Part shown: one piece after another, positions 7,717-59,352 of the stretch
Layout: every line of letters begins with the position of its first letter
Position numbering within the stretch: position 1 is the stretch's first letter
NCBI GenBank assembly: GCA_015060865.1
Contig: SUXS01000004.1
Span: 1 to 64,000 of the forward strand
Length of the DNA: 64,000 bases
Direction: 5' to 3'
Source: Bacteroidales bacterium
GTDB taxonomy: Bacteria > Bacteroidota > Bacteroidia > Bacteroidales > Bacteroidaceae
Translations under genes and position numbers: made by a program
The notes under the pieces: model-generated
Told to the model about the DNA's origin: nothing
The model's database searches: none
What the model saw: the letters and a program-made list of their open reading frames with translations, nothing else

Positions 7717-8100
7717 TGTAGGGTTCGTATCCTACGTGCTTACGGAGAAGATTGCTTCAAGTTTACAGATAACTTTATCCGCATAACTTTGCCTATCAGT
7801 GCTCATGACCATGCAAGTGACCATGCAAGTAACCATGCAAGTAACCATGCAAGTGACCATGCAAGTGTACAAGTTGAAAAACTTGTTTCTGCATTGATAG
7901 GGGAAATGGGACGTTCTGAACTACAAGAACTGCTATCTATCAAGAATAGAGATTATTTTAGAACGGATTATCTAAATCCTGCTATCAATACCGGCTATAT
8001 AGAACTTACAATCCCTGATAAACCCAATAGTCAGAATCAGAAATATCGCCTTACGGCAAAGGGCATTGCATTGAAAGAGCACCTTAAAGATAGCAAGTGA
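7717..8100 (+). pseudogene. C-terminal remnant of an AlbA_2/RecG-like ATP-binding protein with winged-helix tail
   Basis: Frame continues upstream of the tracked ORF: RVRILRAYGEDCFKFTDNFIRITLPISAHDHASDHAS...RDYFRTDYLNPAINTGYIELTIPDKPNSQNQKYRLTAKG, matching the tail of Schlafen/AlbA_2 ATPases; N-terminal domain missing. Confidence 0.6.
7807..7866 (+). repeat. Five 12-bp tandem repeats (g/a)accatgcaagt
   Basis: Encodes DHAS/NHAS x5, like the low-complexity linker of AlbA_2/Fic-type proteins. Confidence 0.9.
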
Positions 8101-33110: not shown

Positions 33111-33917
33111 TTACCAGTCCTTATCAAAAGTCTTGCCTTGGTGCTGTTGCATCATTTTCTTTTGTTTTTCCTGTATATCCTTTTCATCCTGCATCAGGGC
33201 ATTGAGTATCTGCTCGGCATTCTCTTTGGATATCTGCTCCTCGTTTTGTTGAGATTGCTGCTGCTCCTGCTGTTCCTGCTGCTGTTGTTGTTGCTCTTGT
33301 TGCTGTTGTTCTTGCTGTTGCTGCTCCTGTTGCTGTTGCTCCTGTTGCTGTTGCTCCTGTTGCTGTTGCTCTTGTTGCTGCTGTTCTTGTTGCTGTTGCT
33401 CTTGATTTTGTTCCTGATCCTGATTCTCTTGCTGTTGGTCTTGCTGATTCTGTTGTTGTTTCTTGTTCATGTACATGGCTTTAGCAAGGTTATAGCGAGT
33501 CTCATGGTCATGCGGATTGTTTCGCAGCGATTCCTTGTATGCCTCCACGCTTTGTGGATATTGCTGTGCGCTATAGAGCAGTGTACCAAGGTTATGATAG
33601 ATCTGAGCCAGTTTGCTCTTGTCGGTTTCGAGCTTGGCCGCTGTGGCATATTGCTTCAAGGCCTCATTGCCCTTTTCCTCCGACTTTGCCGCCTGGCTGA
33701 AAAGTGCGTTACCCAAGTTATACATGGCATCGACCGATGTTGGATTCAGTTCCAATGCCTTACGGTATTCAATCTCCGCCTTTTCAAAAAGGCTGTCGGC
33801 ATACAACTTATTGCCATTGCGTATATGATCACTCTCAGTCATTGTCTGTGCTGTGGCACACAGTGTGCAACAGAGCATGATATATAGATATGAAATTCTT
33901 CGCTTCATGGTCATCAT
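33111..33917 (-). CDS. batC: BatC-like TPR protein with QQQQE repeats
   Basis: TPRs followed by a (QQQQE)n tract; Bat operon position. Confidence 0.85.
   Translation of the reverse strand: MMTMKRRISYLYIMLCCTLCATAQTMTESDHIRNGNKLYADSLFEKAEIEYRKALELNPTSVDAMYNLGNALFSQAAKSEEKGNEALKQYATAAKLETDKSKLAQIYHNLGTLLYSAQQYPQSVEAYKESLRNNPHDHETRYNLAKAMYMNKKQQQNQQDQQQENQDQEQNQEQQQQEQQQQEQQQQEQQQQEQQQQEQQQQEQQQQEQQQQQQEQQEQQQSQQNEEQISKENAEQILNALMQDEKDIQEKQKKMMQQHQGKTFDKDW
33259..33420 (-). repeat. 15-bp-period CAA/CAG/GAG coding repeat (QQQQE)n
   Basis: tgttgctgttgctcc-type units on the plus strand. Confidence 0.85.
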
Positions 33918-51541: not shown

Positions 51542-52738
51542 ATGGAGACGCTTTATAACAAACATCGGCTATTGATATCGCAGGCGAGTCTTGATATCGT
51601 TCGCGAGGTGATGCACACGATTTCGTGGGACCGCCAGCTGGTAGCTATCCGCGGTTCGCGCGGTGTGGGAAAGACCACCCTCATGCGCCAATACATCAAG
51701 CAGCGGTATGGCAATAACGCTGGCGAAGCGCTCTACTGCGTGATGGACAGCATCTACTTTACCAATCATTCGCTACTCGACCTTGCCGAGCGCTTCCACA
51801 CCATGGGCGGCAAGCATCTCTTCCTCGACGAAGTACACAAGTACCCCACGTGGAGCAAGGAGGTGAAGGAGATAATCGACCTGTGGCCCGACATGAAGGT
51901 AACGTTCACCGGCTCATCGCTCATACAGATACTCAATGCCGATGCCGACCTCTCGCGCCGCGTGCTCAGCTACACCATGCCCGGGCTCTCGTTCCGCGAG
52001 TATCTGCGTTTCTACAAGAACATCCATCTGCCCGCCCATACCTTGCAGGAGCTGCTCACCGATGCCGACGGCATCTGCGACGAGGTGTGCCGCGTATGCC
52101 ATCCCCAGCCTCTCTTCGAGGAGTATCTGCGCGTGGGCTACTACCCCTTCTACGATGGCGAGGAAGTGGAGTACTACAGCCGCATAGAGAATGTCGTCAG
52201 CTTCATCATCGACCAGGAGATGACGCAGTTCTGCGGTGTAGACTCCGCATATACCCGCAAGCTGAAGGCCATGCTGCTCTACCTTGCCGACAACATCCCC
52301 TACGAGGTGAACATCGCCAAGCTGTCGTCCTACCTCGAGCTCAACAAGACCACCGTGCTCAGCTACCTGTCGAGCATGCAGCGTGCCGAGCTGCTCCACC
52401 TGCTCTATACCGACAACAAGTCGGTAACCAAGATGCAGAAGCCCGACAAGATCTACGTGCATAACCCCAACATCCTCTGTGCCCTCAGCTCGCAGCTCAA
52501 CATCGGCACCTTGCGCGAGTGCTTCGTGGTGAACCAACTCTCTACCCGCCACACCGTAGAGTATGGCAAGGAGCAGGGCGACTTCAAGGTCGACGGCAAG
52601 ATAACCTTCGAGGTGGGCGGACGCGACAAGTCGTTCGAGCAGATTGCCGACCTCCCCCACTCCTACATCCTGGCCGATGGCATAGAGCATCCCATAGGCA
52701 AGAAACTCCCCCTGTGGATAGTGGGATTGCTGTATTGA
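51542..52738 (+). CDS. AAA ATPase (ATP-binding protein, DUF4143-like)
   Basis: AIRGSRGVGKTTLMRQYIKQRY; HLFLDEVHKYPTWSKEVKEI; FTGSSLIQI. Confidence 0.93.
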   Translation: METLYNKHRLLISQASLDIVREVMHTISWDRQLVAIRGSRGVGKTTLMRQYIKQRYGNNAGEALYCVMDSIYFTNHSLLDLAERFHTMGGKHLFLDEVHKYPTWSKEVKEIIDLWPDMKVTFTGSSLIQILNADADLSRRVLSYTMPGLSFREYLRFYKNIHLPAHTLQELLTDADGICDEVCRVCHPQPLFEEYLRVGYYPFYDGEEVEYYSRIENVVSFIIDQEMTQFCGVDSAYTRKLKAMLLYLADNIPYEVNIAKLSSYLELNKTTVLSYLSSMQRAELLHLLYTDNKSVTKMQKPDKIYVHNPNILCALSSQLNIGTLRECFVVNQLSTRHTVEYGKEQGDFKVDGKITFEVGGRDKSFEQIADLPHSYILADGIEHPIGKKLPLWIVGLLY

Positions 52739-56191: not shown

Positions 56192-56316
56192 ACGGAGATA
56201 TATAACGAGTGAGAAGCACGAGGTTTACTTCAATATTTTTCACCCAAAGTGGAAATCTTATCACAGTATGCCGTAAAGAAAGCCGATTTCATCAATATGC
56301 TTTCTACCTTTTCCAC

Positions 56317-56412
56317 CTGCCACCCTCCGCCAAAGGGTGATAATCAACTGCAGATTAAAATATTAATGGCGGACACTGCGTACGATAATCCACGTATGCC
56401 AGTGTCCGCCAT
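56317..56412. repeat. Left end of HU/VapE module: CTGCCACCCTCCGCCAA plus bulged hairpin
   Basis: Inverted copy at 58824-58919; hairpin ATGGCGGACACTG/CAGTGTCCGCCAT at 56366-56412. Confidence 0.85.
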
Positions 56413-56447
56413 CAACATTCAACATTCAGCATTCATCATTCAAAGAT
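56413..56447. repeat. Heptamer array CAACATT CAACATT CAGCATT CATCATT CAAAGAT
   Basis: Period 7, directly abutting the left hairpin. Confidence 0.7.
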
Positions 56448-57072
56448 TCCCCTTCACATAAAACCGTACGTTCTTTGAGCCCATGGCACGTAGCTTGCCT
56501 GAGCGCACCAGCTCCTTGAGCTTCTTCGTGGCGGTATAGCGCGAGCATTCACATACCGACTCAAACTCGCGGCGCTGCATATACTCGTGCTCATCGAGGT
56601 ACTTTGCCAAGCGGCGCTCTATCACCTCATCGGTCAGCCGCTTGTTGGGATTGGGGCCTCCGCTCACGATATCGGCACCGCGCATGGCCTGCTTCATCTC
56701 CGCGCAGGGAGTGAAGAGGATGTTCTTCACACGGATATCGTTCTTCGTCACGCGATCTTCCAGTTTCTTGCGTCCACAGGTGAGCGACAGGCTGAAGGTA
56801 CCAATGTGGTCTATCTCCACGCGGTTGCCATCGAGCAGTTCATCACACACGCACTTGCCGAGGGCCTGCAACACGGCCGCTATGTCTGACTCGGTCACGC
56901 TACACGCGAAGTTGATATACTCTGCCAGCTCCTTCGTGGTGGTGAGCTTGCTGTTCACTACGGTCACCGCCATCTGCGGATTCTTCTCTGTGGCGGTTCC
57001 CGTGAGGTCATTTTGCCTACGCAGCTGGTAGGCAATAGTGCCTGATTTCTTGGTTGTTGTCTTTTTTGTCAT
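56440..57072 (-). CDS. HU-like DNA-binding protein with C-terminal winged-helix-like extension
   Basis: 210 aa; ELLDGNRVEIDHIGTFSLSLTCGRKK (HU beta-arm-like), C-terminal EVIERRLAKYLDEHEYMQRREFESVCECSRYTATKKLKELVRSGKL. Confidence 0.8.
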   Translation of the reverse strand: MTKKTTTKKSGTIAYQLRRQNDLTGTATEKNPQMAVTVVNSKLTTTKELAEYINFACSVTESDIAAVLQALGKCVCDELLDGNRVEIDHIGTFSLSLTCGRKKLEDRVTKNDIRVKNILFTPCAEMKQAMRGADIVSGGPNPNKRLTDEVIERRLAKYLDEHEYMQRREFESVCECSRYTATKKLKELVRSGKLRAMGSKNVRFYVKGNL

Positions 57073-57110
57073 AAAGGCTTATAGTTAGTGGATTAATTCT
57101 CTTCCAATCT

Positions 57111-57200
57111 ATTTACCGCTGCCCAACAGCAACGTTATCTTTGCACAAGGGCAACCTTGCTGTTGCGCAACATCAAGGTTACCCTTGCGCAGCGGTAAAT
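57111..57200. promoter_or_regulatory. Nested palindrome / iteron-like region
   Basis: ATTTACCGCTGC...GCAGCGGTAAAT enclosing GCACAAGGGCAACCTTG/CAAGGTTACCCTTGCGC around TGTTGCGCAACA. Confidence 0.65.
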
Positions 57201-57327
57201 AACTTTGTTTGATACAAAAGTACAAAACTCTTGGCGATTTTCCAACTTCCAAGGTGCGAAATTATTCTATTGATTCCGCTTTCGTGGGATTGTATCTTTG
57301 TGACCGAATTGAGGCAGCATGGTTGAT

Positions 57328-57357
57328 GTTATCGTCATCGTCATCGTTAACGTTGGA
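57328..57357. repeat. Hexamer array GTTATC GTCATC GTCATC GTTAAC GTTGGA
   Basis: Period 6. Confidence 0.6.
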
Positions 57358-57476
57358 AAATATAACTTGTTTGTTATTTTTCCTTACGTAGCATATCAAT
57401 TGCAGAACAAACGCTGTTGGCGGCATCGTAACTTTGCGGCAGAAAACCGAAACACATTATATAAATAGGAACTACT

Positions 57477-58787
57477 ATGAAAAAATTGTTTGAAACAGTA
57501 AAGGCATGGTTGCGAAGCAGAGTTACAGCCATGAAGAGTGAAAAGGGAAGAGTGAAGAGTGAAAAGGTTACGGAGAAAAAGACATCTCGCAAACAACCTA
57601 TATCCGTTGCAAGTGAGGCCTTCCCCCTCAGGGGGAATAAGAAGGGGGCCGCTCTTACCCTGCCCGAAGTACAGGCGGTACTATGCAGCAAGTATGAGCT
57701 GCGCTACAACCTGCTCAGCGAGCAGAGCGAGTACCGCGATCGGGGCAGCGAGGGCGACTTCCTCCCCATCAGCAAACGTGTCTATATGACCTGGCTGATG
57801 GACATACAGGCCGAGGGCTACAACTACACATGGCTCGAAGGGGTGCGCATCGCCGCCGAGTCGCTACACATACCGTCGTATCATCCCGTGACGCAGTACT
57901 TCGCCACCCTGCCCCAGTGGGACGGCACCGACCGCCTACGTCCCTTGATACAGCGCCTCACCACCGACGAGACCATGGTAGGCTATCTCTGCCGCTGGAT
58001 GCTCGCTCTCGTAGCACAAGCACAGGGGCGTACCGATGCGGTGTATGCCAACAGTGTGGCGCCGCTCCTCGTGAGCGAGCAGCAGGGCCTGCACAAGAGC
58101 ACCTTCTGCCGCATGCTGTTGCCACCCGAGCTACGTGAGTACTATACCGATAACTTCGACCTCACGGCCGAGAGCCAATGCGAGCGCAAGCTGCTCGACA
58201 GCCTGCTCATCAACCTCGACGAGTTTGACCGCTACTCATCGCGCAAGCAGAGCACCTTGAAGAACCTGATGCAGATGACCTCACTACGCATGCGCAAGGC
58301 ATACCGCAACCACTCCGTCACGCTTCCGCGCATCGCCTCCTTCATCGGCACCAGCAACACCGCTGCCCTGCTCACCGACCCTACGGGCAGCCGCCGTTTC
58401 CTCTGCATAGACATCCGCGAGATGATCGATGTGGACACTCCCATCGACTATCCCCAGCTCTATGCCCAATGCATGACATCGCTCGCCGAGGGCGAGCGCC
58501 ACTGGTTCACGCCCGAAGAGGTGAAGGACATCGAGCGCCGCAACCGCGACTACCGCCGCCACCGCCCCGTGGAGGAACTCTTCTTCCGTCACTACCGCCT
58601 GCCCCGCGAGGGCGAAGCACCCACACTGCTCAGCGCCGCCCACATCTATGAGCACCTCACCCGCTGCGATGCCCGCCTGATGAAGAGCGTCTGTGCCCAG
58701 ACCTTCGGCAAGGTACTCCGTGGGCTCGGTGCCGTACGCAGCGAACATCATGACAAGAGGGTGTATGCGGTGATACCGGTCGAGTGA
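57477..58787 (+). CDS. VapE/virulence-associated-E-like helicase
   Basis: 436 aa; Walker-A-like VSEQQGLHKSTFCRMLLP, Walker-B-like LLINLDEFDRYS, IASFIGTSNTAALLTDPTGSRRFL; FATLPQWDGTDRL. Confidence 0.85.
   Translation: MKKLFETVKAWLRSRVTAMKSEKGRVKSEKVTEKKTSRKQPISVASEAFPLRGNKKGAALTLPEVQAVLCSKYELRYNLLSEQSEYRDRGSEGDFLPISKRVYMTWLMDIQAEGYNYTWLEGVRIAAESLHIPSYHPVTQYFATLPQWDGTDRLRPLIQRLTTDETMVGYLCRWMLALVAQAQGRTDAVYANSVAPLLVSEQQGLHKSTFCRMLLPPELREYYTDNFDLTAESQCERKLLDSLLINLDEFDRYSSRKQSTLKNLMQMTSLRMRKAYRNHSVTLPRIASFIGTSNTAALLTDPTGSRRFLCIDIREMIDVDTPIDYPQLYAQCMTSLAEGERHWFTPEEVKDIERRNRDYRRHRPVEELFFRHYRLPREGEAPTLLSAAHIYEHLTRCDARLMKSVCAQTFGKVLRGLGAVRSEHHDKRVYAVIPVE
57535..57567. repeat. Heptamer array AGAGTGA AAAGGGA AGAGTGA AGAGTGA AAAGG inside the vapE reading frame
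   Basis: Encodes MKSEKGRVKSEKV. Confidence 0.75.
57617..57650. repeat. GC-rich palindromic element inside vapE
   Basis: GGCCTTCCCCCTCAGGGGGAATAAGAAGGGGGCC; encodes EAFPLRGNKKGAA. Confidence 0.7.
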
Positions 58788-58788
58788 A

Positions 58789-58816
58789 AAGATGAAAGTG
58801 GAAAGATGAAAGTTAG
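58789..58816. repeat. Heptamer array AAGATGA AAGTGGA AAGATGA AAGTTAG
   Basis: Period 7, directly after the vapE stop and just before the right hairpin. Confidence 0.7.
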
Positions 58817-58823
58817 GAGCATA

Positions 58824-58919
58824 ATGGCGGACACTGGCGTACATGGATTATTGTACGCAGTGTCCGCCACTAGTTTATTATCAATCATTGCTTTACCCAT
58901 GATTGGCGGAGGGTGGCAG
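58824..58919. repeat. Right end of HU/VapE module (inverted copy of 56317-56412)
   Basis: ATGGCGGACACTG...CAGTGTCCGCCA hairpin and TTGGCGGAGGGTGGCAG. Confidence 0.85.
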
Positions 58920-59092
58920 ATAGAAAACGGGAAGACTATTTGAGACTTTCGTCACCTCGGATTTCCCAGTCCGGGTATTTTAGGTAGATATTATGAAATC
59001 ACTATACTCACGGCAGATTGAAATCCACCGTGACACCACATTCCTACTCCCGCAAACAAAGCCACAGAATATAGATGCCTGAGATATAAAAA

Positions 59093-59126: not shown

Positions 59127-59352
59127 CTTCCCTTTCACAAAGGGTAATTCATCGTATTAGTATTATTTACGCTTACCCATTACCTTTAGCAGTTAAAATA
59201 TGTATTCCTATGCAGTCGCATTTCCAACTATTATGTGTATTTTTGTGTCGTCAATTTGATTACATTCAAGGCAAGCTGGCACGATGATTATCTGAAATGA
59301 GAACAAAAGCAATTGGGTCGTACTGATATAATAGAAATTGCTTATTAGATTT

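Follow-up and report, generated by a model that had tools for sequence, protein, structure and literature searches.

A 22-bp tandem array between divergent HU-HIG and VapE genes as the putative operator and origin of a small Bacteroidales mobile element

Iteron plasmid origins of the RepA/RepE type are built from tandem units of about 22 bp located near the initiator gene. In staphylococcal elements, the Rep helicases of SaPIs recognise iterons via their C-terminal domain, and the putative origin bound by Cch2 of SCCmec has three short repeats (PMC7581432). Among the Bacteroidales, tandem repeats are a feature of BrickBuilt, a MITE of Porphyromonas gingivalis that has between 1 and 22.8 tandem 23-bp core repeats and 12-bp terminal inverted repeats (TIRs) of the IS5 type, GAGACCTTTGCA (PMC4596501).

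The locus considered here lies in a 64,000-nucleotide stretch of a Bacteroidales genome, the whole stretch being referred to as the window. It is an element of about 2.6 kb (about 56301–58941) bounded by imperfect TIRs of about 105 bp, between which only an HU-HIG gene and a VapE gene are found. These genes are divergent, and the spacer that separates them, in the middle of the element, contains a tandem array. The features are as follows.

56301–56412, plus strand: left TIR, with tip TTTTCYAYCTGCCACCCTCCGCCAA followed by an internal hairpin TGGCGGACACTGCGTAC...GTATGCCAGTGTCCGCCA
56440–57072, minus strand: HU-HIG protein, 210 amino acids, with an HU domain (residues about 46–135) and a C-terminal winged helix (residues about 148–207)
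57110–57123, no strand: left array border, TATTTACCGCTGCC
57124–57145, no strand: array unit 1, CAACAGCAACGTTATCTTTGCA
57146–57167, no strand: array unit 2, CAAGGGCAACCTTGCTGTTGCG
57168–57189, no strand: array unit 3, CAACATCAAGGTTACCCTTGCG
57190–57201, no strand: right array border, CAGCGGTAAATA, with ACTTTG immediately after
57477–58787, plus strand: predicted VapE helicase, 436 amino acids, with an AAA+ core (residues about 137–360) and a C-terminal winged-helix-like DUF3874 domain (residues about 364–434)
58824–58941, minus strand: right TIR, from the inverted-repeat alignment

Like the SaPI and SCCmec modules (SaPI Rep, SaPI5 Rep, PriRep1 and Cch2), this locus combines a predicted self-loading AAA+ helicase having a C-terminal DNA-binding domain with short repeats beside the helicase gene. 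The known SaPI and SCC origins lie downstream of that gene, whereas the 22-bp dyad units described here are upstream of it, between divergent genes and in the HU promoter region. Further differences are the dedicated HU-winged-helix protein and the presence of TIRs around only 2.6 kb of DNA, without an integrase, primase gene or phage-packaging gene. Classification as a SaPI/PICI phage satellite was rejected, as two genes in 2.6 kb provide none of the integrase, att sites and packaging functions that define these satellites. The array has the form of an iteron origin, namely tandem repeats of about 17–22 bp near an initiator gene, but its helicase does not belong to the Rep_3/RepA initiators and TIRs flank the element. 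BrickBuilt is similar in being intergenic and multicopy with tandem repeats at its core, and differs from the window element, which has composite TIRs of about 105 bp and about three repeats; the sections of PMC4596501 consulted gave no link to HU or VapE. A relationship to this IS5-type element was discarded because the period is 22 rather than 23 and the TIR is CTGCCASYSTCCGCCAA rather than GAGACCTTTGCA.

The HU protein belongs to the HU-HIG clade of the HU/IHF superfamily (PF18291; E 4e-27, 95.1 bits against a curated cut-off of 26.2), having both the HU domain and the extra C-terminal domain, here a winged helix. Its AlphaFold2 model (pLDDT 82) has an HU fold plus an H-H-H-E-E arrangement, and the Foldseek matches include Bacteroides 4fmr, HU/IHF proteins and winged-helix regulators. 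The VapE protein matches PF05272 (E 7e-32) and DUF3874 (3e-11) and retains the invariant Walker A (K207-S208), Walker B (D248-E249), sensor (N294) and R306-R307 residues. Its model (pLDDT 76) is matched best by PriRep1 bound to dsDNA (7pds, E 4e-14) and also by the SaPI5 primase-helicase (7om0), over nearly the full length and including the C-terminal winged-helix-like region, with SF3 helicases matching too. By domain, catalytic residues and modelled fold it is thus a predicted self-loading helicase of the VapE-like/PriRep type. In the literature searched, which was mostly non-subscription, we found no account tying HU-HIG proteins to a 22-bp array or to TIR elements, no description of an HU-array-VapE system and no assigned function for the divergent HU-HIG/VapE pairs of gut Bacteroidales.

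An earlier note had described the spacer as an iteron-like palindrome nested in three layers. The parts are present: the palindrome TGTTGCGCAACA lies at 57161–57172, the 17-bp arms GCACAAGGGCAACCTTG (57143–57159) and CAAGGTTACCCTTGCGC (57174–57190) share its centre at 57166.5, and the 12-bp arms ATTTACCGCTGC and GCAGCGGTAAAT are found at 57111–57122 and 57189–57200. The outer arms, however, are centred at 57155.5, which is 11 bp or half a unit off the inner centre, and the concentric three-layer palindrome was given up for this reason. What had been overlooked is the period, the region being three consecutive 22-bp units (57124–57189). The supposed degenerate direct copy, AGCAACGTTATCTTTGC at 57128–57144, exists and is now understood as unit 1 compared with unit 3, 44 bp apart. 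The term iteron-like remains apt for the form, 22-bp (two-helical-turn) tandem units beside a helicase gene. That the gene pair and array make up a mobile element with terminal inverted repeats had not been noticed. At the right border, TAACTTTG matches the Bacteroidetes -7 box, TAnnTTTG; the left border sequence TATTTACCGCTGCC also occurs in C19, C23, C18, L070, L071 and L180.

When periods of 17–27 are scanned, 22 is the top tandem period of the array with a z of 7.48, z being a search statistic whose only calibration comes from shuffles and controls. Of 200 dinucleotide shuffles, not one equalled this score (the largest reached 5.5), and the palindrome score of 6.62 compares with at most 4.86 across 40 shuffles. 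Only five sites in the 64-kb window, the array included, reach z≥7 at any period of 14–30, and the other four are simple or short-period repeats. The window contains a near-perfect 12-bp tandem repeat, TGACCATGCAAG, at 7800–7871 (z 10 at period 24) and a long simple repeat of CTGTTG/CTGCTC at 33282–33400.

Conservation at orthologous gene pairs, which had been suggested as a check, is seen for the layout of the array, while between clades nothing but this architecture is kept. The top tandem period (14–30 scanned) is 22 in all 35 distinct divergent HU/VapE spacers, taken from the window's own genome, rumen and gut MAGs, Bacteroides, Phocaeicola and Parabacteroides, with z≥5.5 in 34; the best periods of intergenic controls are scattered across the whole range, 10 of 83 being best at 22 and 4 of 83 reaching z≥5.5 there. 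Upstream of VapE, period 22 at z≥6.5 was found at 35 of 66 loci against 3 of 383 control chunks, and an array lies no more than 320 bp upstream of each of the eight HU-HIG genes in the own genome that are 27–100% identical to that of the window. Many of the units have dyad symmetry, for example TCACTTAAGTGA and CTCACCCGGGTGAG.

The earlier note left it between the VapE helicase and the HU-like protein as to which uses the repeats. The HU protein is the better-supported predicted binder, because array similarity follows HU rather than VapE and because elements with an HU gene only, found with TIRs in two related genomes (L177 and L178), retain the array. The partial rank correlation of array similarity is 0.21 with HU identity and 0.008 with VapE identity when HU is held, over 33 loci that are not independent, making the HU effect a modest one. 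About 15 VapE loci carry an array although the profile found no HU gene next to them, so the array may also be read or required by VapE. With arrays at VapE loci that lack HU and at HU-only loci that lack VapE, neither protein alone explains the array.

The TIR arms at 56309–56412 and 58824–58927 are 79% identical over 106 columns. The limits of the element are precise to about 10–15 bp: the left one (56301–56310) was set by the start of similarity to other copies and the right one (58927–58941) from L070 and G003:C90. Both ends carry the motif CAGTGTCCGCCA and variants of it in alternating orientation. Inverted repeats enclose nine of ten close HU-VapE pairs (in one of the nine, C15, the inverted pair detected is a separate 190-bp repeat outside the likely TIR), three of five HU-only loci and none of 244 control intervals. 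For the C15 pair, the outer 190-bp repeat was rejected as the TIR and attributed to a separate insertion, as a relative lacks the right copy only; the TIR is probably the inner repeat of 153 bp. Only 3 of 22 distant Bacteroides HU-VapE pairs have TIRs, so mobility may be limited to the clade of the window element. A recombinase or transposase gene was sought between the TIRs and in other copies and none was found; the element is accordingly not filed as a member of an IS or transposon family. In four loci (L148, L139, L096 and L110) inverted repeats closely flank VapE and the array but no HU gene, and these are possibly VapE-only versions.

Copies at different sites have been identified, most of the genomes compared being MAGs. 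In the MAG RGIG8693 a 93.6%-identical HU-VapE element (L070) occupies an unrelated site, its similarity to the window spanning 56310 to 58928 and stopping at the TIR ends. Several copies exist in G004 and in the own genome, where C19, C23, C16, C36 and C18 hold elements or element ends of this TIR family, for the most part gene-less. The C16 derivative, whose unit has the same letters as those of the HU-only elements L177 and L178, is absent from the orthologous site in two relatives that are 96–97% identical up to the insertion point; this empty site defines the left boundary only, the right side being cut by another insertion. A search of relatives for sites lacking the window, C19, C23 or C24 element found none, the C19, C23 and C24 sites being occupied there. 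The L070 spacer itself contains a miniature element of about 285 bp (L070:4332-4617, tip CAGGGAAAACGCATTATAAA) with an apparent duplication of about 10 bp, TTAATTCTTT, and the own genome has similar sequence in C18 and C19.

We propose, with a probability of roughly 0.5, that the palindrome acts in cis at the core of a mobile element ordered TIR, HU-HIG, array, VapE, TIR, in which the array would be operator and origin at once. This proposal draws on sequence-based findings, these being the array, the TIRs, the protein domains, the copies at different sites, the empty site of one derivative and the 22-bp period seen again at other loci. Each winged helix of an HU-HIG dimer would read one dyad unit while the HU arms bend the DNA, and the two-helical-turn spacing would align several dimers along the same side of the helix. 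The resulting complex would cover and repress the HU promoter and would help to melt the DNA and load VapE, an AAA+ helicase of the SaPI Rep/PriRep type; such loading at the array would give it a second role as the element's replication origin. Movement would depend on a recombinase encoded outside the element, for which the TIRs mark the ends, and the letters of the array would drift along with the HU protein, giving element-specific recognition. Weighing against the proposal are the position of the array upstream of the helicase gene, its occurrence with only one of the two proteins, the modest HU correlation, the scarcity of TIRs around distant Bacteroides pairs and the negative searches for a recombinase gene, a free replicon and a close viral relative.

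The main rival to a combined operator and origin is that the array is an operator only, on which HU-HIG dimers autoregulate hu and perhaps vapE, and this we regard as a serious if somewhat unlikely alternative. It fits well with the array usually starting 40–95 bp upstream of the HU start, with its retention at HU-only loci and with the array letters following HU. It does not account for the gene-less derivatives, since C19 and C23 retain all three units and C18 and C16 retain one, with nothing to regulate, nor for the VapE loci that keep an array without HU. Because derivatives without genes keep the array, it seems to matter to the element itself, which favours a role beyond regulation of the gene pair.

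A bolder form of the operator and origin proposal, which we put forward as speculative and rather doubtful, is that these are recombinase-less chromosomal mobile elements in which the HU-winged-helix protein, with or without the helicase, acts on a 22-bp iteron array of evolving specificity and copies the element from this central origin, and the TIR hairpins integrate via host enzymes only in a copy-based manner. For the origin proposal as a whole, we found no free replicon carrying the pair. The VapE matches labelled 'phage' that were inspected come from faecal scaffolds lacking verification and annotation, the one 'plasmid' match inspected has chromosomal-looking genes such as transketolase, IMG/VR contains no close viral relative and viral contigs gave no TIR match; a phage or plasmid origin of the HU-VapE pair was set aside on these matches.

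A second rival, which appears improbable, makes the HU-HIG-array complex a centromere-like partition site or a mark of self and non-self, with VapE acting on non-cognate DNA in conflict between elements. The unit letters are wholly different between clades under a constant 22-bp architecture, and at least five different arrays reside in one genome, which resembles the divergence of specificity expected between co-resident elements; yet the element encodes neither a partition ATPase nor a nuclease, and PADLOC gave no defence-system match for HU or VapE.

Still harder to sustain is an ordinary miniature transposon with the gene pair as passenger, with the TIRs mobilised by an unrelated transposase and the palindrome no more than an incidental hairpin or REP-like repeat. 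Gene-less TIR elements do exist and no recombinase was detected in any copy, but the 22-bp layout is also present at TIR-less HU-VapE loci that share no sequence, and a search of the genome found no transposase-bearing element with a matching TIR. Passenger capture would also not predict that related HU-VapE elements have quite different TIR letters, which nonetheless keep the same build of motif, reverse motif and motif. An RNA-level structure (riboswitch, terminator or small RNA) is very improbable despite the strong dyad symmetry, as there is no Rfam match near threshold, what is conserved is the tandem period and unit similarity rather than a single fold, and the near-palindromic units can be used on either strand.

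The array is probably the place where HU-HIG and VapE assemble on DNA. The presence of the 22-bp architecture in every pair examined makes the system accessible to biochemistry, since every protein pair comes with its own defined DNA substrate, and the clade-specific arrays form a natural library of matched protein and DNA specificities. An array that is an origin would reveal how an HU-type loader supports the replication of small chromosomal elements; one that is an operator only would still give the DNA-binding code of an HU family that is uncharacterised.

Some further observations concern the surroundings of these elements. A 68-bp sequence near the right end of the window element (59196–59263) is conserved in G014:C44 and G005:C16, where HU-only elements lie just upstream of it, and this suggests that it marks a region of recurrent insertion. 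Genes for AAA_14/DUF4143-type ATPases occur near several elements (window 51542–52738, which is the PADLOC candidate PDC-S01; G000:C24:150329-151687; G000:C15:99521-100699; and G004:C209 at about 1166), which may reflect an association or the mere abundance of such genes. Finally, a miniature element of about 182–190 bp, GAAGCTGTTTG...CAAACAGCTTC, is present at G000:C15:101350-101539 and 104542-104731 and also at about C36:103150; the two C15 copies flank the paralogous HU-VapE element, and the right one is missing in the relative G003 with a junction overlap of about 4 bp.
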